NCBI RefSeq assembly: GCF_000003815.2
Contig: NC_049995.1
Location: 11,858,957-11,922,956 of the forward strand
Length of the DNA stretch: 64,000 nt
Source of the DNA: Branchiostoma floridae
Taxonomy: Eukaryota > Chordata > Leptocardii > Amphioxiformes > Branchiostomatidae
Direction: 5' to 3'
Shown here one piece after another: positions 3,292 to 47,700 of this stretch. The notes beneath the pieces are model-generated. The model ran no database searches. It was not told where the DNA came from and saw only the letters and a program-made list of their open reading frames with translations. A program made the position numbers and the translations under genes. Each line of letters begins with the position of its first letter. The first letter of the stretch is position 1.

Positions 3292-3790
3292 GACAAATAA
3301 AATTCAGTAAAAGTTGTCGAATTCCCCATTCCTTGTTGCTCCCTCTGATGACTTAACACTTATACGTGGGCTCTTTAATTCATGTAGTAACCGTTACTCT
3401 ATCAGAATGTACCAGCGTCTGTTGGACTACCGTTTGACAACATCAGATAGCATGTCTGATGTTAAGTTTGTGCAAAATAAAATTCAGCAAAAGTCGTCAA
3501 ATTCCCCATTCCTTGTTGCTCCCTCTGATGATTATACATTTATATGTGGGCTCTTTAATTCATGTAGTAACCGTTACTCTACCAGAATGTACCAGCGTCT
3601 GTTGGACTACCGTTTGACAACATCAGATAGCATGTCTGGTGTTAAGTTTGTGTAAAATAAAATTCAGCAAAAGTCGGCGAATTCCCCCATTCCTTGTTGC
3701 TCCCTCTGATGATTATACACTTATATGTGGGCCCTTTCATTGACGTAGTTAACCATTTCTCTACCAGAATGTACCAGCGTCTGTTGGACT
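3292..3790 (-). repeat. Tandem array, about 180 bp x 3, copied from the 3' end of the V-ATPase C gene
   Basis: Units start near 3301, 3481 and 3661 and are about 180-182 bp apart. Each unit contains a copy of the last about 30 bases of the V-ATPase subunit C coding region with its stop codon (copies at 3427-3429 and 3607-3609; the real stop is 3789-3791) plus downstream UTR. The copies differ by a few percent. They lie after the real stop and so are probably transcribed 3' UTR or downstream sequence. Confidence 0.85.
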
Positions 3791-6700
3791 ACCGTTTGAC
3801 CACGTCAGATAGCATGTCTGTGTTGATGCTGTAGTACACGTATGGGTAGTACTCGCCCTGTCCGATGTTCATTCCACTCAGACCCGGAATGTCCATTGGA
3901 AGCTGAGAGGAAGGGAAAGAAAAAAATCAGATTGGGTCTCTTTTTTTTAACATGTTCTATGTTTTATACTGTACTGGGATGTAAGAGTATGATTGAAATT
4001 ACTTTAAGGTTCATTAAAATGTTCAGGTATGCCTTTTCTCAAACATGAGATTAGCAATAGTGGCAGTACTTAGTGGACAGCAACTTCTGCATATCTGGGT
4101 CGAAATCAAGCACATGAACTTCTCAACCTGTTAGAGACATCCTCCTACGTAGGGACATCCAACAGCCAAACAGCCTGTCTGGATGTGCCCTGCTTTCTCA
4201 ACCGTCACCATTAGTTCCTGACCGCCCTGCTTATGAATATTAATGTGCTTACCCATAGGAAAGCCTATTCTCTGATTGGCTGACAGCTGGTTTGGGGGGG
4301 ACGTCCACAGGAACTAAGACAAGAGTGATGGTTAAAAGAGCAGGGTACATCTAGACAGGCAGTTTGGCTGTTGGATGTCCCTGCGTAGGTGGATGGTTAG
4401 AGACTGCCAGTCACTACAGCAAATCATGCTTTTAAAAGAAGTAAAAAATCTCACATCATCAACAGCAAAGGAGCTGCTGTCCAGATGACCGTAGAGCTGC
4501 TGCAGAGAGTCTCTCAGCTTACGGTGAACCTTCTTATTCAGGGGCTGCAACAGCATGGCCTGGAAGTTCACTGGCAAACCATATCTGTAGCAATAGGAAA
4601 AAAAATGGTACATTATAGAACACAACATTGGATATTCTGTATTGCCCAGTGCCAAGCTTACGGTGAACCTTCTTGTTCAGGGGCCTGGAAGTTTACTGGT
4701 AAACCGTATCTGTAGGAATGGGAAAGAATTGCACATTATAGAACACAACATGGGAAATTCTGTATTGCCCAATGCCAAGCTTACGGTGAACCTTCTTGTT
4801 CATGGGTTGCAACAGCATGGCCTGGAAGTTTACTGGTAAACCATATCTCTAGAAATAGGAAAGAATTGCACATTATAGAACACAACACGGGATATTCTGT
4901 ATCACCCAATGCCAAGCTGTTGGTGAACCTTCTTGTTCAGGAGCTGCAGCAACATGGCCTGGAAGTTCACTAACTTGAGTAGAGGCTATAAAATTTTACA
5001 TGCCTATAGTATGTCTCTGTCTTAGTGAATATGGCTTAGAAGAATATATTCATATGCATGCAAAAGTGGGGTGTTACTGATTTAATTGCAAACCAACCTG
5101 AGCACAGACTCCACAAACACACGTAGAGCCTTAACGTGGATCCAAGCTGTGAAAGCCTCGCTGAAGTTCACCTTCAGCCATCTGACCAGGGGACCCTGGA
5201 AACACAAAGAAACAATTTTTATAATAGTCAAGAGCATTCTTTTCAGCAGAAACCAGGGTTGGACAAGTTTTCTGAAATTCAATTGTCCTAAAGACTCCTA
5301 TCGGGCGAGCACATAAAAGATTTACTTGCCCAAACCAATTTTTCACTTGCCCCAAATTCAAATGTCACTGTTACAACTAATACTAGTATATGCATTTTCA
5401 CTTCCAGCAATGGAATTCTCTGTTGACCATTGCTTGAAGTCATGACAGTAAAATGAAACAAGTTATTATCAAAATTGCACTCAATCAATGGAAAAATCTA
5501 ACTTGCCCGATCGGGCAAGTAGTGTAGGTCCTGCACTTGCCCGAACAGCACTTTCATTTGCCCTGGACAATAGGGCTAGTGGACTTGTCCAACCCTGAGA
5601 AACTGCTCTGATATGGAGTAAAATTCAACACATGTGTAACAGCTTCTATAATTGTTTCGTTTTTGAAAAAAATAGTACCTATTTTCGTCTAGGGCTGTCC
5701 CTCGGATAGGATGTTAAATGGAGGTCTGTGTTTGGGGACAGCCATAAGCCAAGCACGTAAAAGAACCCACCACTAATCGAAAAGAGTAGGGGTGCTTCCC
5801 GGTGTGAGTGGATCAAACCTTACAGTCTGGTCTCCGGGTTGACATCTTGCAAAGGTGATACACTACCAAAAATGATTTTTGCTTGTTTTGCTTACCCCAT
5901 GGACAATTCTTATATGAAGAAAAAATATTCTTGCAGGAAGAAAATGTAGAATAAAATTCTAAGCAAAACAAGCAAAACAAGAATCTACCAAAAAATCTTA
6001 ATTCTCATGCAAAGAACAATTTTCTTATTCTTCTTTGGTGAAGAAAATTTTTTCTCACACCTAAGAACTTTAAGCAAAATCTTCTTGTTTTTTCTTATGG
6101 TGCAAGAAAAAAAATCTAGAAATGCTTATTTTTTTAAAACTCTTAAGAAATACAAGAATTTTTGCTCTTGATGTAAGAAAAGTATTCTTGGTGTAAGAAT
6201 ATTAATCTCAAAAATGTCTAAAAAAATTCAAGCAAAAATTTGCTTGCCCCATGGACAAGCACGTTTTTCTTAGATTTCTTGGGGACAGAATAATTTTCTT
6301 CCTGGAAGATAAATTTTCTGTGAGGAAGAAAAACAAGATACACATTTTTGGTAGTGTAGTCTCCTGTTATTTTAATGATTATCCTTCCACAAATATGGTA
6401 AAACTGAACAATAAAAAAACACCAAAAAAAGATTTTATAATACGCTGCAATTTTGGAGTAAGACTTACGAATTGTTTCTTCTTGTCAGAGGCGAGCTTGG
6501 ACAGCTCATTTTTCCCAGCAGTCATCTCTTCCTCATTGTACTGGAATTCTCTCACCACAAATCTGAGAAAAAAACACAGAACACAAATTCCTTTACACAG
6601 TAGTTTTTTACGAATGGTATCTGTTACACTCTTACCACCGTATAGTGTACACACATTACAAGGTCAGGGGGGGAAAATTAAACAAATGGTGACGTGTACC

Positions 6701-9700
6701 TGTTTTCGCGAGCATGGTGCTTGTACTCGTCGACCACCCGTGTGAACATGGTAACTGTGAACAGTCCGTGGTCGTTGTCTTCATATATCTTTCTGCAAGA
6801 AAACATGAAATAAAGGCATTGCTCAATAAAAGAAATGTTCAAGGCAATCATGGTTTCTTGTCTCTCAAAATCTTATGATTAGTTTCAATATGTGTTCTTA
6901 ACTAATAATTGATTTCAGGTTCCCCATTGAAAGTTTTATCTTGACTTACATGTAAATTATCAATGCTGAAGAAACAATTCAATTGCTGATGAATTGTTTG
7001 AAAAACAAAACATCAAAATTTACCATTTGAAATATCTAGAGTTAAATAAAACCATGCATGGTAGACTGAGGTGAAAATGGATATCAATGTACAAAAATGT
7101 ATCTGTATGTAAATACATGTAGAAATACTCAGAAAGTACACTGTGCTGTTTCAGTAACATGAATTTACAAGAAATAAAAGTAGGTTCAACTGCATAAGTG
7201 CATCTCACTAAATTCAAGCTTTTCTTTAATGCGGCAGCTTTCAAATACCTGGCAGAATTAAGAGTTTTGATGTCAACTATGATGTGACTTACTTGGAAGA
7301 TCTGGGCACCACCATGTCTGTTAGTGTCTCATACTTCTCCTTCCAGTCATCATAGCATTGGCTGGGGACAAAGGAAAATATGCCATTATTGGTTAAAATC
7401 TACAGTTAAATTCAAATCAATCATCAAGAATATCTAACTAAAAAAAATCAGTATTATACATGATATCTGAATGACATAAGATCTTTTGTGTAAAGGAAAA
7501 CAAGTTACTGTTTCAGATGGCAAGGTTTCTGAATGTCTCAAGATATAGAAGTCTAAGGTGGTTTAAGAATGTAATAAGGACTAAGTTTTGAACCACCCAT
7601 ACTGGAAATTAAGGCCCCTTCTCTTAATAATAAGTGCGGTGGGTTCTTTAACGTGTTTTCCTCAAGCACAGGAGCAATGGGCCAATCCCTTGCCTAGGCT
7701 CTTAGGTACATGTAGATAGGCATTTAGCAAGATATATCTGCAATTGAAGGTTGACTTACTTGGGAACCACCACTAGTAATGTCTGCAGGTACTCAGAGTC
7801 CATCACAAAGTCTTCCTTCTTCACCAGGTCTCCCAGACTTCTGGTTAAAAGGCTGCCACTGGGGAATAAAGATTAAGCTACTCATCAATATCCTCCTGTG
7901 TATATATAACCATATCAGTATCTTTTTGTGCATTACTTTATTCGGACACCATGAAAGATACTCTTATGCTGTATTGAAAATAAGCGTAATGGTCCAAAAT
8001 AAGCACAACGTTAAGAACTTAATAGCGCAATGTAAATTAAGTGGCTCTAATCTTGTCCAAAGACCATGTAACCAGCTAGTCAACAGACACAAAAAGTCAT
8101 CTGTTGGCCCTAGAATGCCAAGATTCTGTTGTAAAAGTTGCTATGAATAGAAAGTTTTCAAACTTCCTTACGTTGCCTTTCTCGCCATGGCCTGCAGGTT
8201 TCCCTTCAGGTTGTTGTAGGCCTGAGACTTGCTCTTCAGATCAGCGTCTATCTGGCTCACTTGCTGCAAAGGGAAAACACACAAACACAACATGTCATGA
8301 TTCAATGGAACAACCGCTAGTCATGCAAATTTTCAATTATTATTGTCTCCCCATCTAGTATTTGTAAACTACTACAGTAACTGCTACTAAATACCCTCTA
8401 CCAAGACATTGCAAGCCAATGGATGAAACCTTAAGATATGTCATATGTCTTATTGCAGACTTGATATACATTATACATCACTTGTTCAAAGATGTTGTGT
8501 CAAGACTAGTGATGTTTCAATGTATTTATGATTCTTTACATTTTATATCCAGTGGGAAGTTGAAAGAAGCCTGTGCATTATTGAAGTTACTGTCTACGTT
8601 GACTGTGTCAACTACATGTCAATAGCATAAACAAGTGCAGCATAAAGTGTAAGCTGTATGGAATCTTGTGTTGATGATGATTTATTCCGCAACAATTGCA
8701 TCAGTGACAATGTATGGCAATGTATAAATAACATAAACTACAGTCTAATACTACACATAAATTTTATATGTTATAACATTACAACAGTTTCAGTTACTAG
8801 TAGTACAATACTAGTGGGCTTTATCGAGTAGAATCTGCGGTAGGCACTAGTAATAAAGAGAACTGATTACATACATAAGATTGGGTATTTCTGTGCTACT
8901 TTGCGACAATACATTTGTCAAAACTCATTTTGGAATAGTACAGTCTCTTTTTTGCATGGCGTTCTTGTGTCGTACCTTGCCGATGATCTCAGAGATGTTC
9001 TTGAGGGACTGCTTGATGGGGTACTTGGCCATGTCCCACTGGAATCTCTTGATGTAGGTGGCCAAATCAACTGTGGTGACAAACAAACAAAAACATGACC
9101 ACAACATTTCATGTACAATGTACATACAAATTTGTCCAATATATCAAGTCATAACTCGCATAGTAAAAATGTGATGATATGGTTATGCTCAAGCTATAAA
9201 CACAACTACTGTAAATGCATTTAAGTTCGCGGGGATTTAATTTCGCGGTTGCGGGAAAAATGACATTTCGCGGTGGATTTAATTTCACGGTTACACCATA
9301 GATTGCAATCTAATACCATAATAGAAAAATGTTCGCTGTGGTTTTATGTTCGCGGTTAAGTGGTCACCGCGAAAAGCGCGAATATTAATCCACCGCGAAC
9401 ATTTCTGCATTTACAGTATTCAAACAATACGGAAACGAAGCGCAAAAAGACACTTCTCACTTCACTTCAGGCTACTAGAATGAGCCAACCTAGCTGGAAG
9501 GGAGGGTGACCTATGTATGAAGGTCTTTTGTGTACATGTAAAACACAAAGTTTCCTCACCTCCATTGGCCAGCAGATTTTCCTGCAGCTTGTCTTTCTGG
9601 TCCTCTAGCACATCACCCAGGTACTGCGCCACTTTTCTGGCAACACTGTACAAAAAAAAGTAACATTAGATAAGCCCAGTGACAGTAATTACAAGTAATA

Positions 9701-11096
9701 CTAATAGCCTTGGAAGTGGTGACTTTAAGTTTAGGGTCACTCTTGTTGAGCAATAGCACCCAGGGTAGATCTGTGACATAATGAAGACACAGACTACCTA
9801 GAGAGGGTAACAACGAAAGTCAGACAAACTTCATCCACATCTTCAACTTAGAAAACAAGCTTTCCCTTACACTGGTCCTATGTGGTTCCAGTTTGTACAC
9901 AGGCCCAATGTTTTTACCTTTTACTTTGATTTGTATTCCTTTTCTGTTGAGTACTTGTCCAATGATCAAGAGCACATGATGTTTGTTGTACAATATATTT
10001 TGAATTAAGTACCAAACACTAGATGAATATAACAAAACCATTATCTTTTATTCAATCAATCAATCAATTAATCGTTTGCTTGCATCATAAGTTGCTGCGT
10101 GCAGCTACATCTACAGTTCAGACAGTTCTCGCCATGTTGTTTTGCACTGGGACAGTCCAGTCGGAGCTGGAGACCCCCAGCCCCTGGAGCATATGATGAA
10201 TACAGTGGAAGCCGCTTAATTGCACACCCAATTTGCCAGCAAATCCCGTGCAATTATCCGGCGTGTGCGATAATGCGAAGTTACCCAGTTGGACCGCACC
10301 GCCACGGGATTTGGGGATTCCGTGCAATTGACCGAAGTGTGCGTTTATCCGACGTGCAATTACTTGGCTTCCACTGTATCTGTATGTATCTGCATGTCAG
10401 AGAAATGTGTATGTCAGTGTGTGTGTGTTTGTCATACACAGTGTACATAAGTCATATAAAATTTCATCTCACCTTTCCACATAGCTGTCCAGCTTGCCCA
10501 GCTCATCTGACAGGCCAACTAGGATGTCCAGAGTACCAACCTGGAGGAGGGAACAGTTTTGTTGTAACTTATACATGAAATAACAATATATCTTCCCTGT
10601 GGTGGGCCTGTAGTGAGATTTTTTACTGCTGCCTCCCTTAAGGCTTTGGTTGGTGACAAAATCCTGGTGAGAACCCTGCCTACACATGTATACGTCATGT
10701 TTAGGACAGATACTTGTATGATGTACTGACCTTTAAGTCTGGTATGTGGAACTTGGTGTTGGAGGACAAAGTCTGAGTCTTGGCTGTGCAGTTGTTCAAG
10801 AAGAGGTTTCAATCAAAGGATACAGATTGACAGATTCATGGAAAATGTACGTACCTTTAAGTCTGGTATGTGGAACTTGGAGTTGGAGAACAGAGTCTGA
10901 GTCTTGGCTGTGCAGTTGTTCAAGAAGAAGTAAAGATTGACAGATACATGGAAGCTGTACATACCTTTAAGTCTGGTATGTGGAACTTGGTATTAGAAGA
11001 CAGGGTCTGAGTCTTGGCTGTGCAGTTGTTCATCTTCTCCCACGTCTGCTGGCAAGTCTTCTCCCCCGGGGCAGAGATCAGCCAGAACTCCGACAT
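3789..11096 (-). CDS. ATP6V1C1: V-type proton ATPase subunit C
   Basis: Subunit C of the cytosolic V1 sector links V1 to the V0 proton channel through the peripheral stalk and takes part in reversible V1-V0 assembly at endolysosomal and plasma membranes. Twelve coding exons in transcript order: 11096-10965 (ATG), 10540-10473, 9645-9560, 9070-8976, 8263-8172, 7858-7760, 7361-7293, 6792-6700, 6562-6469, 5195-5098, 4584-4455, 3902-3789 (TAG). All junctions are GT-AG, phases agree, and the sum is 1170 bp, giving 389 residues against about 382 in human C1. Diagnostic segments include [20 protein letters not shown] at the start, [47 protein letters not shown] and the tail [13 protein letters not shown]. 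It lacks the extra insert of the C2 isoform. Introns hold several MITEs and decayed partial exon copies. 5' UTR exons were not identified. Confidence 0.97.
4640..4980 (-). repeat. Three decayed partial copies of the V-ATPase C exon 4455-4584
   Basis: The intron next to exon 4455-4584 carries three partial copies, around 4650-4720, 4770-4853 and 4910-4975, spaced about 123-139 bp. Each covers the start of that exon (YGLPVNFQA...NKKVHRK) with the flanking intron. The first has an internal deletion that breaks frame, the second stays open through KKVHRKL, and the third is truncated. They look like former tandem units that included the exon acceptor. Confidence 0.85.
5254..5597. mobile_element. 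Short inverted-repeat element, hAT-like MITE
   Basis: It lies in a V-ATPase C intron. The ends are a perfect 14-bp inverted repeat beginning CAGGGTTGGACAAG. A 6-bp direct repeat AGAAAC flanks both sides (5248-5253 and 5598-5603). The interior has repeated ACTTGCCC motifs and a small palindrome near 5505. No coding capacity. CAGGG ends are typical of hAT non-autonomous elements; the exact 8-bp duplication expected for hAT is not perfect here. Confidence 0.75.
5690..5830. repeat. SINE-like dispersed repeat, 5'-truncated copy
   Basis: It contains the block AAAGAACCCACCACTAATCG followed by a GGTGTGAGTGGATCAAA-like end. The same block recurs at 46250-46370 and, weaker, at 41100-41150. It is probably a truncated copy of one dispersed family. 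Confidence 0.55.
5859..6358. mobile_element. 500-bp palindromic MITE with 16-bp terminal inverted repeats
   Basis: The left end TACACTACCAAAAATG (5859-5874) is matched perfectly by its reverse complement at 6343-6358. The TA dinucleotide at each end may be the target duplication, which would fit a Tc1/mariner-type source. Internal arms are also partly complementary (CCCCATGGACAA near 5895 and 6247). The interior is very A/T-rich and has no convincing open frame. Confidence 0.8.
9207..9418. mobile_element. 212-bp palindromic MITE (TACTGTAAATGCA ends)
   Basis: A perfect 13-bp inverted repeat forms the ends (TACTGTAAATGCA at 9207-9219, reverse complement at 9406-9418). The interior arms carry multiple TTCGCGG/CCGCGAA motifs and could fold into a long hairpin. 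It lies in a V-ATPase C intron. Confidence 0.85.
10201..10378. mobile_element. 178-bp MITE with TACAGTGGAAGCC ends
   Basis: The 13-bp inverted ends match perfectly (10201-10213 and 10366-10378), with CAGTGGAAGCC inside a TA dinucleotide. This matches the pattern of pogo/Tigger-like Tc1-mariner non-autonomous elements. The interior has repeated TTGCACACC/CGTGCAATT complementary blocks. No coding sequence. Confidence 0.8.
10729..10930 (-). repeat. Two partial tandem copies of the first V-ATPase C coding exon
   Basis: Copies at about 10729-10805 and 10851-10930 repeat the last three quarters of the exon 10965-11096 plus its donor side, spaced about 110-124 bp. They encode the [20 protein letters not shown] stretch with small changes but lack the exon start and an adjacent AG acceptor. 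They are probably not used as exons. Confidence 0.85.
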
Positions 11097-11447
11097 AGTG
11101 CTCTGGGACAGAGAATACAATTATAGCTACAGTATACTATAGCTAGTACCTTCATCATGGTAGCTATAGTTTAAGGGGCACTTTTTAGACAGACAACAGT
11201 AATAAAGCTGTTCGACTGTTGTTGTCTATGACGTCTCGGTCGACACTATTTTTAGGCTGTCTAAAGAGGATCAACATAGTCAGACCAACCTCCTTGGTCA
11301 CACAATGTTTTTTCTAGACAATAAACGGTAGACAATAAACAGTTGCATGACTATATAACTGTTGTAGGTCTAAAGCAGGCCTAAATTCCTCTTGGTGTAT
11401 CATTGCAGTCAGTAATGATTTGTGTTTCATCTAACTCTAAGGCAAGT

Positions 11448-16844: not shown

Positions 16845-17172
16845 AAACATGATCTACACCAACATATAGTTAGACATAATTATCAAAATATGTGTAAGGA
16901 AGTAGATTGATGAAATGGTTTGAGCAACAGGATGTATAAATTTTAAAAAATTAAAGGCCTATAAGTATGTATAAGAAAAAAGCTTTAGGAAAAATTATGT
17001 TTTACAAACAAACATAACTACATATGACATTTGATAAATAGAAAATTTTTATGCAATTTAATTGTGATCCAATGTGTGACACTTTAAACCAGTGCAACAA
17101 TTTACACAGAAGAATATGTTCATGGTGAAACTATAAATCTTATTTGCAATTATTTTTTTCACTCTTTTTTAG
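16845..17172 (+). other. 328-bp spacer between zinc-finger genes 1 and 2
   Basis: It begins with the decayed remainder of the last finger of gene 1 and then becomes AT-rich, ending in a T-rich tract and AG acceptor at 17171-17172. It is too short to be an obvious independent promoter plus first exon, which suggests gene 2 uses an upstream exon shared with gene 1. Confidence 0.5.
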
Positions 17173-19805: not shown

Positions 19806-19869
19806 TTGGTGGGACTATTCTGCAGTGCAAAAACATGACTTACAACAACATATGGTCAGACACACTGAT

Positions 19870-23445: not shown

Positions 23446-23548
23446 TGTAAGTGTAAAATTTGACCACTTTTCTGCTTTGAAAGGGGGTGAACTACTCTCC
23501 ACCTGCATATAGATCAATTTTTAATATTTTCTTTCCTCAATTCTAGGG

Positions 23549-29733: not shown

Positions 29734-32700
29734 GTAAGAAAACCATACATTGTATACATTCACATTTAAAGCTGCCAGGCCTAAAGTGATGAACATTGGT
29801 ACTTCTATACTCATCATGATTGAATTACAGTAACCATATGTTTATTGTTTATTTCAGGCACCATTGCCCATACACAGAATACAATATATACATTAAAAAA
29901 ATCATTATGATGGACTTAAAATAAGATAAAAGAAAGCACCCATAGTGATACTGTCTCCATCCTCTTCTTTCTAAGGGTACATCTGTATAATATAATCTGT
30001 TAATAATGTTTTGTGGAAAATTTAACAATGAAAATAATGATTTTCAGTAGACTGATAATTGTTTTTTGTTTTTTTCCTTGACCTATAAGGATCTGAACAA
30101 GCATCTCTGTCCTGTCAATGGACAAGCCTGTAATGGAGCTGCCCCAATGGTGTGAATGGAGTTCACCACACGGATCCACCCCGGAGGTGTGGCCAAAATG
30201 GAGTGAGCTGGTACCGCCCCACCACCCTGGAGCAGCTGTACAGCCTGTTGGAACAGCACGGAACCGGTCAGGACCGGTACAAACTGGTCTGTGGAAACAC
30301 TGCTGCAGGTAAGGAAACTTTTATAAAAAAAATTGTGGCCAAAATGGAGTGAGCTGGTACCGCCCCACCACCCTGGAGCAGCTGTACAGCCTGTTGGAAC
30401 AGCACGGAACCGGTCAGGACCGGTACAAACTGGTCTGTGGAAACACTGCGGCAGGTAAGGAAACTTTTATAAAAAAAATTGTGGCCAAAATGGAGTGAGC
30501 TGGTACCGTCCTACCACCCTGGAGCAGCTGTACAGCCTGTTGGAACAGCACAGAGCTGGTCAGGACCGGTACAAACTGGTCTGTGGAAACACTGCGGCAG
30601 GTAAGGAAACTTTTATAAACTTAAAGAAAGTGTGGCTAAAATGGAGTGGTCTGGTACCGTCCTACCACCCTGGAGCAGCTGTACAGCCTGTTGGAACAGC
30701 ACGGAACTGGTCAGGACCGGTACAAACTGGTCTGTGGGAACACTGCTGCAGGTAAGGAAACTTTTATAAAAGAAAGTGTGGCTAAAAAAAAGTGGTCTGG
30801 TACCGTCCTACCACCCTGGAGCAGCTGTACAGCCTGTTGGAACAGCACGGAACCGGTCAGGACCGGTACAAACTGGTCTGTGGGAACACTGCTGCAGGTG
30901 AGTAAACTCAGTAACAGTTGTAACAACTGAGTGTCCTGCCCCTGAGGTGCAGCCAAAATGTACCAGGCAGGTTAACACTGGACAGTGCAAAAGAAGACTT
31001 CCCTCCTAGTATCTGCTTGGAAACTATTGGTGCAGTAAAGACAGAACTGATAACAGACTGATGAACGTCAATGAAGATAAGACATCCAGGTAATAAATAA
31101 GATACGCCAAATAACAGTCACTCAAGCAACAGGATATGATTTTGGAAACGGTCACTGATAGACGTTTCAGGTAGCATTTACTAGTACACCAAATGGCAAT
31201 TGCTTAGCAATTGGATGTCATTTTGGAAACAGTCAGACAATATCTTTTTTTCAGTGCATGGTGGAGCTGTGTACCTAAACAAATTTCAGGTACAGGTACA
31301 GGTACACGGGTTTAGGTACAGGTCCGGACATTCACCTGTACCTAAAAAAGTTTAACCAAGTATATGTAAGTCAAACATGTAGCTAACTGTCTTTTCTAGT
31401 GATAAATTGTCATCTTTGTATGTGGAATTACATATTTGAATCTCAAAACAATTTGTCATTGTTGATTCGGGTTTCACTTGTCCAGCAGTCTTAAAAAGTA
31501 GTGTTTAATAGTGATTTAGTTTGTTTAGGTACAGGTACAGGTACACAGATGTTTAGGTCCGGACCTGTACCTAAACAATTTTTTAGGTACGGTACAGGTA
31601 CGGGTATTTAGGTACACAGCCCTAGTGCATGGTTATCAGGTTATGATAAGTCTTGACGCTGACGAAATGTAGTGGATGCTACCTGAATGTCTGACCGTTT
31701 TCAAAAATCATATCAAGTTGCTTGTCAATGAGTAACTGCTATTTGCATGGCGTGTGATACCAGTGCATCTTGTCTGAAGAATGCAAACTACAAGGTGTGC
31801 CCCAAAATATTGTATTTTTCCACAGGAGTGTACAAGAATGATGGGCCCTTCACTTCTCTGATTGATGTGAAATCTGTGGCAGACTTGTTCATCACCCAGG
31901 TAAGCGCTAATTCACACTCCTTTTAAATGACATTTTAAATGACATTCACACTGTTTGAAGTTTTGGGTTTTTATACAGGATTGTTGTGCATTAATTTTGA
32001 TATATTCTTAAAGAACAGTGTAGGTGCATGTTGTAGTAGTGCTTATAAGGGAAGATATACAGCCCTATAAACAGATGAAATTTTTGCAAAGGATCCAACA
32101 AATTTCAATCTATCTACACAGTATAATTCTATCCTTTGCTTTATTTCAATTCATTTTACTTTTTTTCCATTCTTAGGGAGATAGTGCATGCCTCTGGAAT
32201 AAGCTTTTCTCATAGATAAGGAGAAAGTAAATCGTCATAACTGAAAATACAAATTTACTACAAATGTAATTGTTTTGTCACATAGGCTGGTCCCCCACTG
32301 GTTGTTGGTTCTGCTGTGAGCCTGTCTGCCCTTGTGGACCTGCTACAAACCGGTTCAGACCAGTCTCCATCCTACGCCGTGCTGGCGGAACATTTGATGA
32401 AGATTGGCAATGTGTCGGTCAGGAATGTAAGTTGTACTACAGATGTCCTTAAAAGTTTCCAAATTGAATACTTTTGAAGTTTCATTGATGTATTAGAATT
32501 CAGACGTACATGCATACAATACGTACATACATACATACATTGTCAGTCATTTTTGTGTAAAACAAAATGGGTTTACACGTTAAAATTCCCAATTTTGCTC
32601 ATCACTTTTTTTATATGACAATACTTTTCTTCCCGAAAAATCACTAAAACTGGAGAGGTTGAAGAAACTGCAACTTGGTTGTTTTTAAAACAGTTGCTAT

Positions 32701-35700
32701 AGACTTGAGGGGGTTACGCCTCAAATAGAGACCGCAAAAAGACGGGTTAGCACCCTAACATTTCTTCTATGTAGACAGGTGGTTCGGGACGAGATAGTTC
32801 TTAATACTGTACTTATTTCAATGGGAAAATTATCTAATGGACCACCAAAAAGTAGTCACATTGACCTGGTGGTCTTTACATGTAAACTTGGTCACTTGTT
32901 TGTTAATCTTTGATGTTCTCACAGGTTGGCAGTTGGGCAGGAAACTTGATGATGAAACACGCTCACCCAGAATTCCCTTCTGATGTCTTCACTATCATGG
33001 AGGCTGCGGGGGCAAAGGTCACAGTCGGTACCCGACATGTCAGGGAGACGGTTGGACTGGTCGACTTCCTGAAGATGGGCATGGCTGGCAAGGTATCAGC
33101 AGCTCTTTCATTATAGTTAGACCACATTGCTTTTTCTGTGTCTAATTCAAAATCATTCCTAAACTGTTCGGTGTATAGGGAGCCCCCATGTCCATACATT
33201 TGCCCTTGGGTGACAAATGTATTTATGCAGACCTACAGTAATTACTGTAGGGGTCCATTCCAAGTGGTATGCATTTATATATAGTCTCTTTCTCTTAAGT
33301 GTTGAGTGCTAAACAGTGTAAGTATGTACCGTTTTTTTAAGTCTAATATAATTATAAAGTCTTTGGTGGATTGTAAGTTTGGTATGACCCAACTAGGGTC
33401 CAAACCCTCAACATGAATGCAAAATTATATCAGTTCAACACTCTACATAACCGCTTAGCTATTGCACAGATAATCTCTTAGAATTGGTCCATCTAGAGCT
33501 TGAAATTGTTAAGTATACCTAAATTATACTTTGTGATGTTTTTATACCATGAAATTCAATGTACATGTAATACTATATAATATTATAAACTCATATATAT
33601 CTCATATATATATCATAAGATCTGCAAAAGAAATGAAACCTTGTATCTCTGACCTACAATATTAATGTTCTCCCTATATTTCTCCCTACCAGCTGATTCT
33701 GAGTGTGGAAATCCCTGCAGCTCTTCCAAATGAAGTCTTCAAAACTTACAAGATCATGCCAAGGGCACAGGTCAGTTGCAATAAGACTCTTTGCATTTTT
33801 ATGCAAATGCCCACAAATAACAATACAGCTGGGCAGTATGTTAGATTTATGAACACAAGCCCAGCCATGTGTTTGTAACAAAAACTTTCCCTGTCCAGGG
33901 CACTGTCCAATAGACACTCAGGATTCCTTGTCATCCAGAAAATCAGTCCAAAAGAAGCTCACAATTCTGTTACCATAAAATCCGGTCAATGGTCCAAACT
34001 ATTTTCCATGATGTGAAAAGTAGAAATCCTTCCTACAAAGTTTCAGTGTTTAGGGTCTGATACATAAATGGATAGTGAATACCCAAGGCATCTACATTTC
34101 TGTAGCCCATGGGCATCACAGTAATTATTTGCAATGATCACTACAGCAGGAAGCCAGAGTCTATTTGGCTTTTATCTACAACACGATCTTTGTTCCTTAC
34201 AGAATGCCCATGCCTATGTGAATGCTGGCTTCAGGTTGCGGTTAGGTGGACAGGACAAAATGTCTGTGATGGAGAAACCTTCCTTGGTGTTTGGGGGTAT
34301 CAGCAAAACTATGGTATGTGAAACATTCTTACTTAGAATTTGGCTTGTTTTTGTGCGTGTTTGCATATGAGTGTGTGTTTGTGTTTGTGTTGTAGGTCAA
34401 CGTTAGCTAAGGCTATTATAAGTTGGCAACAAATCTTAATGATCATTTAACACCCCAACAGGACCATGCTGTGGCAACTGAAGACTTTCTCATTGGCAAA
34501 AATCTCTTGGAGGATGGAACACTTCAAGGTACAGATCTGGATACTAAGCATTATTCCTTTAGCAAGTATATTAAAAAATCTTGTAATTTTTTATAGCCAT
34601 GCAACTACATGTATCACAAAGTGTACAACTAGATCTTTTAATAGATAACAATTACTCCTTTACTTTGTATCTATAGGAACATTGTCAGTCCTATGAATAG
34701 AATAACAGTTAACTGTAAGTCCTTTCTTTTGTACCTACAGGAGCGTTGTCAGTCCTGGAGAGTGAGCTGAAGCCAGACGACTCTTCCCTCTTCTCTCCAG
34801 AGTACAGGAAGAGCCTGGCATCCACACTCTTCTACAAGGTTTGGTTAACTTTATTGGTTTATGAAAAGGACTGTTGATAGAGTTATAGATGGGTTCTTTA
34901 AAATAGTTTATTAATCTCAACAAGTAAAATGATATTTCAGAGAAATTTCCAATTGACTGAGAGATTCTACATCATGTTGTATGTTGATTAATTCTTTTAT
35001 ACCTATATCTGTCTGACAGCTACCATATTTATCAAGAGGTTACTAATGATATGCCAAGAAGAAGTTACTCAAGTCAAACAACTGGATATGATTTGGGATT
35101 TTCCAAAAATCATATCCAGTTGCTTGTCTGAGTAACTGCTTTTTGGTGTATCTTATTACATGGATGCCTAAACTTCATTGGCGCATTACTTTCAATATTA
35201 CTGTTTGATCATTACATTATGATAAAGAAGAACTTTGGAAGACCAATGGCAACAACTTAACACTAAGTACAAAATAGAGTTATAGGATAAAGTGTAACAA
35301 CCTAGTTAACATATCAATATATTTCTTTGATATAGTATTACAATGGAGTAAGCTGACCTTTAGTTTCGGTATCTTTTCTAATAGCAGAGCAGTTCTTGAT
35401 ATGTTTGCCTACTTTTTAAATAATCTATTCTTTGTTTTTCAGTTCTACCTATCAGTTGTTGGGAAGGACCACCTAAGTGAGCCGGTCCGTTCCGCCCCGG
35501 AGCCCCTGGTGCGACCGGTGTCCCGCGGGGAGCAGCACTTCCAGACTAAGGAGTCAGAGTGGCCAGTCAATCAGCCACTGCCTAAACTGGCCTCCAAACT
35601 ACAGGTTTGTTTTGTTTCTTTGAACCTTTGTTTATTTATGAAAGCTCAAATTGGCCTGCAGGCCACTATTCATTGACGTCATGTGGGAAAAGGCAAGGGT

Positions 35701-38700
35701 CAGACTAAGTACATTGTATATAACAGATCTAGAGATACAGTTTACATCTTTTAAAGTCCTAATAGTCTTATAAGTCTATAAGGTAAAAGCATTATGCTCT
35801 TAGCACACAATTGTGTCCAAATTAGACATGATGGTGTATCCAAAATAGGCCGCTGCTCTGCTGTTGGTGGCCAACAATGAAATTTATCATATAGCTAGAT
35901 GGAGTTGGCCAATCAGAGGCCCCCATTTCCCATGGGTTATCAGGCCGTAACCTCAAAAGTGGTCAGTTATTAGAATAACCGACCACTTTTTGGACCGCAC
36001 CATTATACAGGGGACAGTCATGAATTTTTTTGTACTGTTGTTTGTGTGTAAACCATGCATAACTGTCAAAAATATTATGATTGATTGGTTATGTTAATTG
36101 GGGTCCACATGGGGAATATATCGATACTTGAAAAGGAATTATGCTGATTTTACACATTTTCATTATTGCTTTCTAACGTGATGAAGCCGGTACCTTCCTA
36201 AATCACTTTGTATATACGTACTTTGTCGTGCCCAAGTGAAAAGGCTCTGCATGGGGGGTAGCACCTTGACGCCACGACAGTGTGGTAGGATATAGGTGNN
36301 NNNNNNNNNNNNNNNNNNNNNNNNNNNNNNNNNNNNNNNNNNNNNNNNNNNNNNNNNNNNNNNNNNNNNNNNNNNNNNNNNNNNNNNNNNNNNNNNNNNN
36401 NNNNNNNNNNNNNNNNNNNNNNNNNNNNNNNNNNNNNNNNNNNNNNNNNNNNNNNNNNNNNNNNNNNNNNNNNNNNNNNNNNNNNNNNNNNNNNNNNNNN
36501 NNNNNNNNNNNNNNNNNNNNNNNNNNNNNNNNNNNNNNNNNNNNNNNNNNNNNNNNNNNNNNNNNNNNNNNNNNNNNNNNNNNNNNNNNNNNNNNNNNNN
36601 NNNNNNNNNNNNNNNNNNNNNNNNNNNNNNNNNNNNNNNNNNNNNNNNNNNNNNNNNNNNNNNNNNNNNNNNNNNNNNNNNNNNNNNNNNNNNNNNNNNN
36701 NNNNNNNNNNNNNNNNNNNNNNNNNNNNTCTGTGTCGCAGGTCGACCCCTGTGGGCGATGTGCGCATTCCTGACCAGGGATTATCTCACCATATACACCT
36801 TGGGGCGGGGCATTAACCCTTTATTGTCAAATAGGCACTCGGGTGGATATTAAGTTATTTCTAGTGTCACGTTCATTTGATTCCATTATATCAAAATTTT
36901 TTGCCTTGATAAAAGAAATAAATTGAAAGGTTATTAAAGACTTTGAAAAAGCTCACGACAAAATTGTGGTAAGTCTTAAAAGAAATAACTTAAAATAAAG
37001 GTATATCAAAGACTTTGAAAAACTGACAGCAGAATTGTGATACATGTATTTCATGACATGATGTTTGTTGTGTGTATAACAGGCATCAGGAGAGGCTGTT
37101 TACACTAACGACCTCCCCCGTCTCCCTGGGGAAGTCTACGCTGCCTATGTGACGTCCACTGTGGCCAACTGTAAACTGGGCTCCATTGACTCTACTGAAG
37201 CCATGGTAGGTTGAACAGTTTAGCTTGTGCTTTATTTTAATCATTGCGGTCGTATGACAGAACCCAGAGGTCTTGGGTTTGAATGCTGTCAATTGTACCA
37301 ATCATGTTTCTTAGGAAAGGCACTTTGCACAACTTTCCTCACTCCATCCAGGTGTAAAAATGGGTACTTTGCACATAAATAGTGGGAGGAGATGGTTGGG
37401 CTCTGCCTCCCATCCAATACCATGCCCTAGATAGTGTGGACAACAATAATCTGATCCCTGTGTCCTTAAAAAAGGCGATGAGACTGACTTTGGCTTTTTC
37501 TCTGCTATTTCATTCCAAACATTGCACACGCATTTGCAAAATGTACAGCAAATTGCTGTCTCAATTACTGTAGAGCATCGTGATGTTTAATACAGGATAT
37601 TATAAAATTAGAATTCTTGTACACAACCAGGTTATACTTATTGTGCTTACGTTTCAGTGTCTATCAGACATCTTCCTCAGAGCTTCTGACTGAAGTTCTG
37701 CTTCTCGTCGCTACATGTAGCCGATGTAGGTGGCGCTTTTGAGGCGAGAACACAATCCCAAACATGGCGAAGTTTGTATCCCCCCTCGAGGGGTGTCTGA
37801 TAGACACCGAAACATAAGCACAATAAGTATAACCTGATTGTGTACAAGAATTCTCCTATATTCTACCAACCTTATGAAATTATTTTTGGATGTATAATAC
37901 AGTTGTATCTCTTTCTCTTCCTTTTTTTCTGGAGACCATGCCAGGAGCCGTGGCCTGCCTGACAGCCAAAGATGTTCCCGGGATCAACAACTTTGCTAGA
38001 CCTATGAGACAAACAGAAGAGGTGACTAGATTACGCAAAAAATGACCTTTACAATTGAGTTGTCATTTAAAAAAAAAAGTAAGCTTTCCTTTGATATAAT
38101 TCAAGAACAACAGACATAATCATGGAAAGTTTGAGCTCCTTCTTTGTGACCCACTCTATAAGTAACTTTGAAGCCCTGTTCTCATCATTTGATATCATAA
38201 TAATTCTAACAAACAAAATATCATTTTAAAGGGTAATAAATAAGAATAGAGAATAATGCAATGTAATTGGTAAAGTATTCACTGATATATGATTGACTGA
38301 AAACAAGTTTTGTGTTGAGTTTAGATTTTGTGCAGTGGTGAGGTGCTGTATGCTGGGCAGCCTATAGCTCTGGTGGTAGCAGGTACAAAGTTATACATTA
38401 TGTATAATACTAGAATTTTTTTGTATTTTTTTGTATTTCATCGGTGAAGGTTAGACATATACTAATGTCATAGAATGGCAAGGTCAATTCTAAGGTCAAA
38501 GAATTCGAAGAAGGTGCTCAGTAATTTGTTCAACCTTCCTGACTACTTAGATTTCATAATGAACGTACCTCTTTTTACCAAACTTGTTTTATTATATGCA
38601 CGCTTGCACCAGTTTGGGGGTTTCCAGAGGATGTCATCCATGTAATCAAATCAATGTGGCCTAAGCTACACAAATAAACATGTTAAACTTTGTAACCTAT

Positions 38701-41700
38701 TCCAGACACCCAGTCCCACGCTGACGCCATGGCTAAGGCTGTGAAGGTGACCTACACTGACCTGAAACCCCCAATACTCACCATCCAAGACGCCATAGCT
38801 GCCCAGTCCTTTTTCCCTAGTAATGATCAAGAGGTCATCAAGGGAGATGCTGAAGGTCAGATTTAGCCTCGGTTTTCATGTTATCTAAGTATTGTATGTT
38901 GTCCACTGGTGTCTTAACTTTGACTAAATGTAACACATCGTTTGTCTTGTTTACATGTATGGTGGCCCCCTTGGAAATCTTAGCAAGTTGTAGGGACCAT
39001 CCACTCATTTTGAGATCAATAAAAGAATAAATGAATGGAAAGAACACCTGAAAGGCAAGGTAAAGGTCAAGTTCAAGCAGTCGAACCTTAGACCTCTTCT
39101 TCATGAGCTATCAGTGCAGTGTGGCTCCACTGAATTTGAACCAGATGTGGTGATAGGCAGAGTGTGCAATCCACTGCAACACATACACAAGACTACAGTA
39201 CACACAGACAGCTATACGGGATTTGCCCTATTTTTGTCCAAAGGGCAGAGTAACTTGAAACATAGCATTCTTGTTTAAGGTAATAACTATTCAATCTAAC
39301 ACTACAGGTGCCATCGCTGCAGCCCCCCATATAGTGACAGGGGAAGTGTCATGTGACACCCAGTACCACTTCCACATGGAGACGCAGGTGTGCAAGTGCA
39401 CCCCCTTGGAGGATGGGATGGAAGTGCAGGCATCCACCCAAGCCCTTGACAGTGTACAGACAGCAGTGTCACAGGCAACAGGGCTGGCCGCACACAGGTT
39501 TGACTCTCCCTCAAGCTGAATCACTATCTAGTTTCTGGTCTGTTGTTCCCTTTCCTGCAAGAGTTAGACACATGTAGTTCTTGGACTCAGATGTCACAGC
39601 TTCATAGCAGACCACCAATGCTACTAGTATGTGCCTTAGTACTTTGGGTTGATACTATGTAATTGAAGGAGGTGAAAGCCTTTCTGTGTTGTCTATCAAT
39701 CTCTTGACAGGAAAAATATTGTTTGCTTCTTGCAAAGATATTTAGGTCATAGTACAAATAGATCAATGGAAAGGAGAGAGGGCACTGAGATTACTACTAT
39801 TTGAGGAGGTAAAAGTGTTATTCAAAAATAAGATCATAGTACAAATAGATGGATTGAAAGAAAAGGGTTCTTTTGATAATATTATGCAATTTTATAAGCT
39901 GCAACTTAAAATTCTGTATCTTGAATGCATAATTATAGGTATAATCAGTATTGATCAATTGAAGAATTCTTCAAACTGTGTAGCCTTCCATCGGATCCTG
40001 TTTTAAATAATAACTCAGATTTCAGCACCAAGGAGAGGAAAGTACTAATTTTTTTCGAAGCAACTGTTGATTAAGAATTGCAGCTTTTCTTTCATCTGTA
40101 ATGTAATGCTTACATTATAAGTTAGTATATTTTTACTTGAAGAACGTTATGGTAGAATTTGATTTTAGACTCTGAGACCATGACTATCCTTTTTAGGGCT
40201 AGTAGGGTAGCCTTGGTCTCAAATCAAATCAAATGTACAATATTATTTGTAATGTTGAGATACTGTATACAAGTGGTATTTCTGTGCTGAAAATTGCTTC
40301 ACCCTATATATATATATACTATGTGACTGCAGCGTGTATGTATCAGTGAAGCGAGTAGGAGGAGGGTTTGGAGGGAAGCTGAGCCGTTCGTGTGTCGCTG
40401 CCAGCGCATGTGCTGTGGCTGCCCAGGTTCTCAACAGGTAGGTTTTCTTTACATTTTTTTAGATATGATACAACATAAGTCGATGAAGGTAAGACATTCA
40501 GATAATAAGATATGCCAAATAGCTATTACTCATAAGCAACTCAAATGTCTGTCCATTTCTTATCAGGTGCTTGAGTAATTGCTTGATTGGTATATGATAC
40601 AACATACTTTTGAAATGGAATCACTGTAACTTGAATTAACGGTAAATCAAGCAAACTCTATTTTGTGGAAAAATATGAATTTGATTTCATTTTGAATTGT
40701 TCTGAATAATCCTTGGTAAACCTACACTGTATTATCTCTGATTTTGAGCTATTGTCAGCAAATAAGCATTCAGCCACGATGATTGGTTGGCAGGGACAAC
40801 TTTCCACTGTAAGGTTACCAGGGTTCTTGCAGGAACCTAATAGTACACATCTTCAAAAAGATTCTGATAGCTATAAAAGCAATCTCTCACAAGTGCCTGG
40901 CCAGAATTAAATGAAATTAGCATTACATATGCCTCAAATCTTACCAATTACATGTGTTGCATCTAGTAGGAATTTTTTCTGAAGTGCACCCAGTCGGTTG
41001 CTCTAGACCAAATTTGACCTAGCCTAAGCTTAGTATGATGATGAAGCTCGGTATAATTATGTAACATGTATTCTTAAAAATCTAAGCACATTACAGACAG
41101 TAGAAAGAACCCGCCACACGTGCGATGGTGTGGTGTGAGTGGTTAAAAACGTACAGTACCTTGGCCGCACCTGGGGCAATTACTGTCTTATTGAGGTCAC
41201 CTGAGTGGCGCTGAATGGCAGCTTGCTCCAAACACTTGGCACAGTCGTATTGAGGTCACCTGAGTGGCACCGAATGGCAACTCGCTCTAGACCCTCGCGA
41301 TTTAGCCCCGCCTATTGTAAGCTCCTCGCAATTCAGCCCCTGGCTGTAAAAAGTGAGTAGTCGGCCCACCCAATAACAATAACCCAATAACAATAACAAT
41401 TAGTATATGTTGCACTCATCACTCTGTTTTTTTTCGCAGGCCTGTTTGCCTTTCTATGAGTCTGAAGACCAACATGGAGACCATAGGGAAGCGAGCTCCA
41501 TACTTGGGAAAATACAAAGTAAGTTGACTGCATGCTTAATGATGTATAAATCAATGTCTGCAAAAATGTATTGTTGTTTCTTATCATACTATTTAAAATT
41601 TATCTTCATCTCATTTACATAATTTCTTGTTGTCGATTCATAGTTTTTGGTTTGATAACTATTGGAGCTAAGAATGTTGCTCAGCATCACTGATGAATGG

Positions 41701-44700
41701 CTGTGGATAGTACCTGAAATGTCTGACTATTGTATTGCAGATTGTAAAGTATTTTATTGGTTGGTGGCATGTCTATTGTTTCAGGTTGGATGTGATGCTG
41801 ATGGCAGGTTGTTGGGTATAGACTACCAGCTGTATGAGAACCAAGGCTGCTCCTCAACTGACTCCTGTCTTGACTACGCAGTGTTTTTTGCTGACAGTGG
41901 TAATGTTGATTAGCCTTTGTACCATCCGGAAAGTAGTTGGCTCCAGCGTTTATTATACACTAAATACAGTCGCTTCTCGCTCTGACATTCATTATACGCT
42001 ATATAATGTTGCCTCTCTGCTGATCCTCCTGGTATCCTTGACCATCTTTATAACGTATGGAATCGTCCAAATTTTGGACACATGAGCGAATTAAGAAATA
42101 GGTTGAAGCGCTCGTTTGAACAGGTGTTCCAACACGCTAAAAGCCCTTTTGTGGGAAGGCCTGTTGTCATCAAACGAACCCATTCCTTAATTCTCTCATT
42201 AACTGAGTCAGACGTTAGCGACAAACGGTTTGAATGTGCAGGTCTCCAGATGGGTAGCAGAAGCGAATAGGAGTGAACTACTACCCGGCGAGTATTATCC
42301 AGGCTAATCTGTTCCGTGCTTTTATTACGTTCCAAATCCTTATTTTGCCTAGTATCAAGTCGGAATACTAATTGTCCTATTGATGTATGAGAGACTGGCA
42401 TTGTTTTGCAGCATTCAATGTATTCTGTTAATGCTGTATCCATATTAATTTTGTAATACTGTCAGTTAAATTATTTTAGATTAATATACATTTCGTGTGT
42501 TTCAAGGGCTCAGACTCCTACTTGTAGTGTCATTATGGGAATATAATGTTTTGGGAAACATCGCTTTGAAAAGTCTTAGGCCTTGTAGAACACTACTCTC
42601 CAAGAAGAGGTTTGGCTCCAGCTTTTTTTTAGAAATATGTTTAAAGGCGCTTTTTTCGGACTTTCTATTTTGTTCCATTTTCATCCTGTCAAATATAACC
42701 AGAGCCAATCCTCTTTTTGGAGAGTTGCAGAAGAAATGTGGGGTTTTAATTTTTTCTGAATCTTTTATTTGTGTCCTGTTTTCAGCCTATTTCTGCCCTA
42801 ACTGGAGGTATGTCGGGACAGCCTGCCAAACCAACATAGCCAGTACCACAATGACTAGGGCTCCAGGTATGTGTGCTAGCATGTGTTTGTACCTTATTTG
42901 TTTTAGCCATCTTAGGCATTCTCCTTCTTTTTTCATTTAATTTCAGCAATTGAAAACATTTCAAATAACAGAACTGTATAGTGCATTATTATCTTACAAC
43001 CTTTTGCTTATGAAAGAAGCATACATAAATGGAAATGATGACAATTAAAACTGCATGCAGCTGTCTTCATTTTATCCTGAATCAGATGAGGAATTTGGTA
43101 TTTTTCCAAGGACACAACATTGGACCCTGCTAGGGACTCAAACCCAAAACCTTTACATTCTAAGTTAACAACCTTATCCACAAGATCTGAAACCACCTTG
43201 CACTGTTTTCAGGTTGTATCTCAGCCCATTTCTTCATGGAGCACATCATGGACCACGTGGCTGCAACTCTGGGTAAGGATCCGGGGGAGCTACGCAGACT
43301 CAACATGTTCCAGGCAGGTCAGAGGTCACTGACGGATAACCCGATAACCGACGACACGATGAGCCAGCTGTGGGATGGTACAGATCTTCCTTTATCTTCT
43401 CTTTCTAGGCCATGCTACTTATAGGCCCCATATTAGGCCATATTAACTTGATTATATGGAAGACATATAATTTTAGACCTTTGTTTCCAAAGGTTTTTAA
43501 CCATACTGTAAATCATACAAAGCAACTTTAAAGCACCTTCAAAATAAGACGGTCACAAAAATGTTGGTTGCATACAAAGAGCTTTGTTAACTAATGCTGT
43601 TATTGACAAGGAGGATGATATGAGCTTAAATGCTTTTTCCAGATCTTTTTAAGTCAGCTGAGGTGAAGAGACGCAAAGAGGAAATAGAAGATTTCAACAA
43701 GGTAGGATTTTTAATGTTATTAAGATTTTTAGGCATGAATGTACAGGTTTGCCTTTCCTGTATTTTTACCATTCTGATTAGGTTTCCCTCTATTGTCCTT
43801 TGATGGTATACTGTGACTGGTTGTAGATCATAAACCACATGTACATCATATATTGCACTGTCCCAAAAAGTTTTTTAATGAATGCCTAACAATTAAAAAA
43901 TGCTTACTAATAGGCATATATTATATATGTCGTTTTTACCTGTCAAAATGATTGCATAAATGGGAATTTTGATAAGATTGAAAAGATGGTAATGTATAAT
44001 GTATATTGACAGTTACACTGTCTTACAGTGTTAGAATGTAACCCTTAACCTTGGAGTGGCCTTCAGGTCACACCTTGAAATGACCATAAAGAAAAAAAAA
44101 AAAGTAAAAAACTCTTACAATAAATGACTGACATGAATGTGTCTTTCAGACCAACCGTTGGAAGAAGAGAGGGCTTTCCATGGTGCCTATCCGGTACCCT
44201 ATCCACTGGGCGGGTATCCGTTTCACGGTGTTTGTAGCGATCTACCACACTGATGGCTCCGTGGTCATCACTCATGGCGGTATTGAGATGGGACAGGGAA
44301 TCAACACAAAGGTAACTAACAAGAGTCGTCGTCTTTGTCGTATCCATTTTTTATTATACTGCTGCTGGGATACCCTGTCACAGGGGTAGGCAGCAGTCGG
44401 ATAGTCGTCACACTGTGCTTCCATGCGGCTGGTCTGTCCAGTAAGTCCAGCTCTGGGCTTCAACAAGAGGCTCACACAAAATAGAACATACTATTAGCAA
44501 ATATTAGTTGCTAACAAAAATGCCCCTGCAGCTCCAAAACAAGCTGCTAGGGAGTCCTTCTTGACATAAAGTATGATAAATTTCAGAGCAAGAAGCAACT
44601 GTATAGTGTATGATAAATGCCGGAGCAACCTACTTTCCAGATGGTACCCAGGCTGGTGATTGACCAATCTGATGAATGTTTTATGGATGTCACTCCAGGT

Positions 44701-47700
44701 GATGCAAGTAGCAGCTGCCAAACTTGGTGTTCCCATGGAAATCGTCCACGTCATGGCAACCAACTCCCTGAGCGGTGTCAACAGCTCGGCGAGTGGGGGC
44801 AGTGTCAGCAGCGAACTCAACTGTAAGGTACGTCATCCATAGCTATTGAATCAAAGAAACATACTATTAGGGGCCCTTACCCTTCTGCACCATATGTACA
44901 CATGTATGACACACCAGCATGAGTCAGCGTCATACATTCAAACCTGTATTAAAGCAGCCACCATTGCATAGCAGCCAGCGGGCCATTACAACCACTTCTT
45001 GTCGGTCCCTTGGATTTTTCCCATTGACCTAAGCATGTAGAAATAGTCTGTAATGAGCCCAGCGCAGCCACGGCCACATGATTTCTGGTCCCATAGATAC
45101 AGAAGAAACACACAATGTCAATAACCTGAACCAGACGGCTGTGGCCACGGTTACTGGTAGAGTAGCAGACACACTGTGAGTTCGATTACATAATGTAGCG
45201 AGTGGCAGGATAGGAGCTGGTCACCATATATACGTGAATACATAGAAGGGGTTTCTTATACCATGTGAAGGTAAACATTATGCAGTTGCTTGCAACTGTT
45301 GCCTTTCTAGATAGCTCATTTTTTAGATTATTGTTGTTGTCATCAGGGAGTGCTTGAATGCTGCCGGAGGCTGAATGAACGGATGGACCCCATCAGACAG
45401 GAGATGGGCGGGGCTCCAAAATGGGCAGAACTCATCAACATGTGTCACAAGAAGGGGCTGGACCTGTCTGAGAAATACATGTGGGTGCTACCCTCTTTTG
45501 TTTTATATCTTAAAGTAAATGATACATGCAAATACAACAGATGGGCTCAATAGATGTGAGATTCAACCGTTTTCGATTCATTTTAAGTCGTCTTTTATAA
45601 GCAGCGCAAAAATTATAACAGTAACATTGCTTTGTTCTTTCAATACTATTGAATTTGATATTCTGTTGTACCAACTGTTGGGGATATATCTCCTTTAACC
45701 AAGTTATCTAACTTCTTTCTTTCATCTGAATATTTTCCTCGGGAATTTAGTACAAGTCATATTGTTATTTAGTACAAGGTGGCTTTAGACGTTTTAGAGG
45801 CTTTTTCTACGCTAAAGACGACTCAAACTAATACAGCCTGATTTCTGTCATGGGTTGTTTGGCAAAGTTATTCATATCAGTCCCCTGGTGAAGACTCGGC
45901 TGACCAATTTTCTAGATGAACACAAGATTATCTCTCCAACCCAAGCAGGATTCTGGAAAAACTTACATTCGTTACATCAAATTTACATCTATTTTTCAGG
46001 GAGTACCCCCCTCCCACAGCCGAAGGGACCCAGTACACCACCTGGGGCGCCACCTGCACGGAGGTGGAGCTGGACGTGCTGACGGGGGAGCGACAGATCA
46101 CACGGACGGACATTGTGCACGACTCAGGAGAAAGGTGGGTGTGATGTGCGTCCTAGGGAGACAAGTCTTAAGGCACTTTACACGACTTTCCTCACTTCAC
46201 TCAAGTGCAAATAAGTTATAGCATGGATAATTAGGGACGTCCCTCAGACAGAACATTGAATGGGTGGTGGTCCTGTATTTGAGAAGAGCCACACCTTGCG
46301 CATGTTAAAGAACCCACCACACTTATCTAAATGAATGGGAGTCCTTTCCAGTGTGGGTGGATTAAAAGCAATTTCCAGCCTAGACGTAGTAGGGAGCAGC
46401 CTTTAAAGTCCCTACTTAATGTACATGTCCTCATTGTTAGCAAACTGCTAGCTGGTCTCAATCATGATGTTTCTGAGATTCCCAGATTATTTTATATTGT
46501 TTTCTCTTAGGGTGGCTTCTAACCCATGCATGTATGCAAGAATGTACCTACATGTATGACAGCATACAGTAATATGCTTAAATGTCATTGATGCATAATT
46601 GTTGCAAAGAAATATCAACCAATGGATATTCCTGTTTTCCATATTTCAGCCTGAACCCAGATGTAAACAGTCCCTGGCTGAGAGTAGTCAGCAAACCCAC
46701 TAACCTAATAATTCTTAAACCTCTATTTGTTTTCAGCCTGAACCCAGATGTGGATGTAGGACAGGTAGAGGGCGGGTTTGTGTTTGGGCTGGGGTACTGG
46801 CTCACAGAGCAGTGCAGATACGACACGAAGACTGGACAGCTCCTCACCAATGGAACATGGGTACCTTTTTAATGGAATAATGCTAGCTCACCTTTATCTG
46901 TGGGGTAACCTATATCTGTTGTTTTAAAAACAGGATATCAAGGGATATTCACGTGAGATGGTTTAAAATTGCCATAGTTTGAAAATGCTGCAATTTCAAA
47001 CTATCCTCTGTCAACTTGATATGCCTAAATATCCTGGTTTAGAAATGACGAATAAAGGTTACCCTGCAGATTAAGGTCAACTAGCGTTACATACAAATAC
47101 ATGTTGTATTATGTCAATTTTTTTCTCAATATGTGATTAATAGTTCTGAGCTCGTATTTGTTTTGGCTTGCAATATTGCATTTTTTCTCTAATTTCAAAG
47201 TTGTCTGCAAGTAGCAGGTTGTTCGTTTTGCTTAGTAATCTCTAATATATTTGTTGAAATTTTGCACATCCTGGATTAATTATGCTGTCTATATGTATTA
47301 TTTTACTGAATTTGTTTTGAACTTTTTTACCCTCAAGAGAAGGCTTGCCTGTTACTGTTTTCTATGTTATTAAATTATGTCTTTTTCATCAGGTTTTATC
47401 TTCCAAACATGTTCTCCCCCCATACAGGAATACAAGCCTCCTACTACCAAGGACATTCCAATTGACCTTCGTGTGACCTTGCTGCCCAACGCCCCCAACC
47501 CACATGGAGTGCTGAGGTCCAAAGGTATGGAATTACCTTCAAGTATTTCCCGGACAATGTACCAGAATATACTAATTAGTATTGACTAAGTTATCTTTGT
47601 CAAGAAAGGTAAACTTTTGTGTAGAAAGAGAGACTAAGTATTGCACAAGTCATTAACACTTCATTGAGTTGACTGATTGATCTAACAATGGATGGATTAA

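Follow-up and report, generated by a model that had tools for sequence, protein, structure and literature searches.

Two neighbouring genes in the window (the whole stretch of 64,000 nucleotides of Branchiostoma floridae DNA that was analysed, part of one contig) carry tandem arrays at seven exon ends. These arrays are probably amphioxus 'mirages', i.e. ordinary local tandem duplications that are tolerated since the exon-continuous copy leaves the mRNA unchanged.

Arrays at exon ends of two genes

The host genes were modelled as follows:

3789..11096, minus strand: V-ATPase subunit C gene, 12 coding exons in the rebuilt model
27727..48445, plus strand: aldehyde oxidase/xanthine dehydrogenase-like gene (molybdo-flavoenzyme), 32 coding exons found

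The V-ATPase C product has 389 amino acids, and over residues 1-383 it matches V-type proton ATPase subunit C 1 (chain 6wm2_O; E=2.8e-181). When the 513-Mb genome was searched with the PF03223 profile (E up to 0.001), all eight matches fell inside this gene. The oxidase-like model comprises about 1250 residues; exons 5' of 27727, if any, are unplaced in it. In its exon 30090-30308, which hosts a five-copy array, the reading frame is broken by one base on the upstream side of the array, and the shifted frame stays open through the exons that follow. The break could reflect an error in the sequence, a polymorphism or damage to this allele.

All seven arrays which a preliminary description had placed at exon ends of the two genes were recovered with Tandem Repeats Finder and self-comparison. 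The unit lengths of 66-182 bp given there became periods of 64-180 bp in our recount. The extra copies are located in intron or UTR sequence, as that description held, and the exon-intron junction it saw in the units is present in six of the seven arrays; the unit at 3283-3824 includes the stop codon and 3'UTR only. The arrays are:

10705..11032, minus strand: V-ATPase C first coding exon; exon 3' part, donor and intron start, present in 3 copies
4516..4971, minus strand: V-ATPase C exon 4455-4584; intron end, acceptor and exon 5' part, present in 4 copies (one partial)
3283..3824, minus strand: V-ATPase C last exon; final codons, stop codon and 3'UTR, present in 3 copies
28433..28777, plus strand: oxidase exon 28724-28884; acceptor and exon 5' part, present in 2.5 copies that are 100% identical (period 139)
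30188..30908, plus strand: oxidase exon 30090-30308; exon 3' part, donor and intron start, present in 5 copies with a period of about 146
34639..34756, plus strand: oxidase exon 34741-34838; acceptor and exon start, with one diverged copy (64-bp period)
46644..46751, plus strand: oxidase exon 46737-46860; short copy of the acceptor and exon start, period 87

In the six arrays the junctions are acceptors in four cases (exon starts 4584, 28724, 34741 and 46737) and donors in the other two (exon ends 10965 and 30308). At the first coding exon of V-ATPase C the exon-continuous donor, from 10964, is accompanied by decoy donors at 10854 and 10730, and at exon 4455-4584 the authentic exon start 4584 by decoy exon starts at 4709 and 4846; the fourth copy of the latter array (about 4903-4971) has no acceptor. 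The array of the last exon lies within this one exon, with no splice junction in its unit. The five-copy oxidase array has its authentic donor from 30309 and decoys at 30455, 30601, 30752 and 30898, and the array at 28433-28777, which includes a 72-nt spacer, has decoy exon starts at 28446 and 28585. The remaining two arrays are weak and consist of a single extra copy each: at 34639-34756 the copies share 54 bp at 78% (decoy exon start 34677), and at 46644-46751 they share 21 identical bp (decoy exon start 46650). No new intron bounded by duplicated proto-splice sites was found in either gene, as the exons of V-ATPase C and of the oxidase are explained without using the copies.

Under the same search, none of three dinucleotide-shuffled windows gave a repeat pair. 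Thus the repeats are not due to chance; their placement is a matter that this control does not address. The extra copies could also have been created by haplotype merging or misassembly. The identity of the 139-bp units at 28433-28777, which points to either recent amplification or an assembly error, fits such an origin, as do the gaps in the assembly (N run 36299-36728), and a supplementary-file legend in PMC3087553 describes the draft-genome version of one globin mirage as apparently aberrantly assembled. However, four of the five strong arrays show 5-18% divergence between their copies, and for the similar repeats of PGBD5 new data upheld the original sequence, according to PMC3902484. We therefore consider an assembly artefact extremely unlikely.

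Decoy splice sites and divergence of the copies

The six junction arrays retain 12 decoy splice sites, all of which score inside the range of authentic sites. Against 42 authentic donors, the six decoy donors rank at the 81st to 100th percentile, and against 43 authentic acceptors the six decoy acceptors rank at the 23rd to 86th percentile, with splice matrices that were trained partly on the authentic sites of the array exons themselves, which favours the decoys. Use of a decoy would lead to a premature stop in 11 of the 12 cases, and when oxidase exon 30090-30308 is read on through its copies, in-frame stops are met as well. This indicates that the outermost site is needed for a normal protein at five of the six junctions. 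The exception is the decoy acceptor 46650, which would add 29 in-frame residues, with no stop, to the exon starting at 46737. With decoys as strong as authentic sites and mostly giving stops, each array could test the spliceosome's choice among near-identical sites.

Codon positions were counted in the exon-derived blocks of four arrays, the three of V-ATPase C (including the stop codon/3'UTR array) and one of the oxidase. Third codon positions make up 19 of the 36 variable columns overall. They account for 10 of the 11 columns in which the exon-continuous copy alone differs (9 of 9 without two unit-edge codons), all 11 of which come from the three V-ATPase arrays and none from the oxidase array, and for 9 of the 25 variable columns among the other copies, near the neutral third. 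The position bias in V-ATPase C suggests that one copy per array acts as the coding copy while the others drift. In the array of V-ATPase exon 1, however, the exon-continuous copy has no fewer changes than the intronic copies. A simple neutral decay from a single origin does not predict this pattern, which counts against the explanation that we favour.

According to this explanation, short local tandem duplications would arise anywhere in gene DNA, and those that survive would be intronic or would span a single splice junction (or the stop codon). Survival would depend on the exon-continuous copy staying intact and the outermost splice site being used, so that the mature mRNA is unchanged. Surplus copies would become intron, or UTR past the first stop, and would then drift, while unequal exchange or slippage could alter the copy number and homogenise the units. 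In this scheme we infer the duplication chemistry, the use of the outermost site in these mRNAs and the neutrality of the copy number.

Alternatively, the copies could be functional alternative splice sites or exons under selection. Apart from the decoy scores and the 29 extra residues that acceptor copy 46650 would give, this is suggested by a kinesin gene elsewhere in the genome, in which a short exon-like stretch (L080 2770-2958) is present twice, nearly in tandem, and encodes VSY(F/V)E(I/V)YMDKIRDLLDG; this pair is a candidate for a pair of alternative exons. Against a function stand the premature stops from 11 of the decoys, the differences among intronic copies, which show no third-position bias, and the paralogues of the oxidase. 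For the oxidase exon that gives five matches in the window gene, each of five paralogous loci gives a single match, as judged from a match table in which short or worn copies could escape. This suggests that the five-copy array could be local and recent. Selection-maintained alternative exons were rejected for most arrays because of the stops and the unbiased change among intronic copies, and we regard a functional role of the copies as very unlikely. One of the oxidase paralogues is located at G000:C17 from 11939359, some 50 kb past the exon with the array in the window oxidase, and more are found on C11 and C3.

Junction overlap under random placement

The preliminary description argued that random minisatellites would not be expected to overlap splice junctions this often. 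This was examined with a null model in which the arrays were collapsed, a unit of each period was placed randomly in the two genes and wholly exonic placements were discarded. Under these conditions a random placement crosses a junction in 21-64% of cases (0.21-0.64), depending on unit length, given short introns and units of 60-300 bp. With short introns, junction overlap by itself is thus not evidence of targeting. Moreover, the oxidase gene contains four intron-only near-tandem pairs beyond those described earlier, which are counter-examples to junction placement:

31270..31616, plus strand: intron-only pair in the oxidase gene, offset 296, GTACAGG-rich
36910..37042, plus strand: intron-only pair in the oxidase gene, period 67
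39744..39860, plus strand: intron-only pair in the oxidase gene, period 87
41182..41295, plus strand: intron-only pair in the oxidase gene, period 59

A second sample was obtained by searching the genome for myosin and kinesin domains, with 30 loci each, to which presenilin and six kinesin stretches were added. The score threshold was 60 for the 60 loci found with myosin and kinesin domains, and 40 for the window, presenilin and L075-L080. Outside the window, junction status was classified by hand from translations, and the expectations were computed with the exon density of the window. Among the borderline calls, L066 100-335 is ambiguous and was entered as non-junction, L049 1879-2120 abuts an exon and was entered as intronic, and L056 1769-2037 is a weak junction call. 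Zinc-finger coding repeats, the array 3283-3824, pairs outside both gene spans (e. g. 56916-57650) and L001-L008, which are the window itself, were left out of the counts.

Junction-spanning arrays were present in kinesin loci and in presenilin, in line with the earlier suggestion that the process recurs in the genome; presenilin is also one of the cited amphioxus loci, with which the array found here agrees. The 30 myosin loci contained no junction-spanning array; two arrays were found in one of them and both were judged intronic. The process thus appears to be uneven among genes. The density in the window, like that among the kinesin loci, suggests a genome richer in mirages than the few published genes imply, whereas the myosin sample had none.

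In the window, six of ten arrays span a junction, compared with 3.5 expected (P=0.085), and at the loci elsewhere seven of 15, compared with 6.2 (P=0.42). Pooling both gives 13 of 25 against 9.7 expected (P=0.11). The junction overlap is therefore not clearly above chance, the claim that random minisatellites would not reach it is not borne out, and the case for a non-random targeting of junctions is weak. The pooled result depends on the model: with a crossing chance or exon density 25% below that of the window model, P is 0.011, or 0.007 at a score of at least 60.

It is conceivable that splice-site DNA itself makes exon borders hotspots of duplication, through the GC step, the polypyrimidine tract, R-loops or splicing-linked breaks. 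All four window arrays with a score of at least 200 are junction-spanning (P=0.024, in a subset picked post hoc), which renders a purely geometric account somewhat unlikely, and at a uniform score of at least 60 the pooled arrays span a junction in 11 of 19 cases against 7.3 expected (P=0.064). In addition, the copied block at 28433-28777 contains the acceptor, and the flanking spacer is missing 5' of the first copy. Yet neither the pooled counts given above nor those at a score of at least 200 (six of ten against 4.0 expected, P=0.16) favour such hotspots, nor do the loci elsewhere. Furthermore, intron-only arrays are common and some of them are strong, like the minisatellite at L078 392-966 in a kinesin gene (period 107, score 728), which overlaps no listed exon, and an array at L010 (score 719). 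Junction copies may also stay detectable for longer because the coding copy is constrained. Taken together, targeting is neither shown nor excluded, geometry accounts for much of the overlap, and a junction-directed duplication seems unlikely to us.

Known mirages and related systems

The preliminary description supposed that junction-spanning minisatellites may be known at one amphioxus locus, Adh. More loci have been published: PMC3087553 and PMC3902484 name mirages in Adh3 (Canestro et al. 2002, as cited by later papers), in the globins BflGb6 and BflGb9, in PGBD5 and in troponin C, and cite papers on retinol dehydrogenase and presenilin for similar structures. According to these two papers, known mirages leave splicing undisturbed in the genes examined, and PMC3087553 considers that they are possibly general in cephalochordates and links them to intron gain. 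Among the papers listed in our literature searches, which covered few subscription journals, no genome-wide count of mirages was found.

The arrays of V-ATPase C and the oxidase are a new, unusually dense set of these known structures. In the published descriptions, mirages are likewise minisatellite-like tandem copies across one exon-intron border, 5' or 3', and many copies retain AG/GT signals. The unit lengths are similar (150-160 bp and 157 bp in the globins, 60 and 108 bp in PGBD5), and the copies of the BflGb6 mirage, which are 81-100% alike, resemble the window arrays in this respect. What differs is that the genes are new, that six splice borders and one stop codon/3'UTR border are affected within about 43 kb, and that the arrays are known here from the DNA sequence of one assembly.

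Intron gain by tandem genomic duplication, for which potato RdRp (PMC4974935) and the mirage model (PMC3087553) are examples, likewise starts from a duplicated segment with splice signals. In contrast, the genes of the window show no new intron. Each array could seed the gain of one.

Tandemly duplicated, mutually exclusive exons also place copies of exon sequence in the adjacent intron, as the window arrays do. Unlike these, the copies in the window have only one exon end each, none being a complete exon that has a splice site at each end and an open frame, and most would give stops if used.

A further possibility, which we regard as doubtful, is that mirages are a genome-wide amphioxus class which affects several per cent of introns and has a border-biased origin, and that many of them duplicate sites of authentic strength, some of which (e. 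g. the 29-residue extension of the exon at 46737) are already used as alternative sites. If this were true, the genome would be a natural experiment in how exon definition picks the outermost of several near-identical sites.

The window contains further repeats and open frames. At 21882-23381 (minus strand) lies an open frame of 499 aa that encodes a reverse transcriptase domain (PF00078, E=9e-35) and is flanked by zinc-finger frames; we take it to be LINE-like. Three long open frames, at 14430-16844, 17088-19805 and 23525-25027, contain zinc-finger-like repeats as well as coding tandem repeats. The pair at 56916-57650 is near-tandem but diverged (offset 277, 74%) and lies outside any placed gene, and at 59644-61149 a 501-aa Ser/Thr-rich, mucin-like open frame carries an 18-bp coding repeat.
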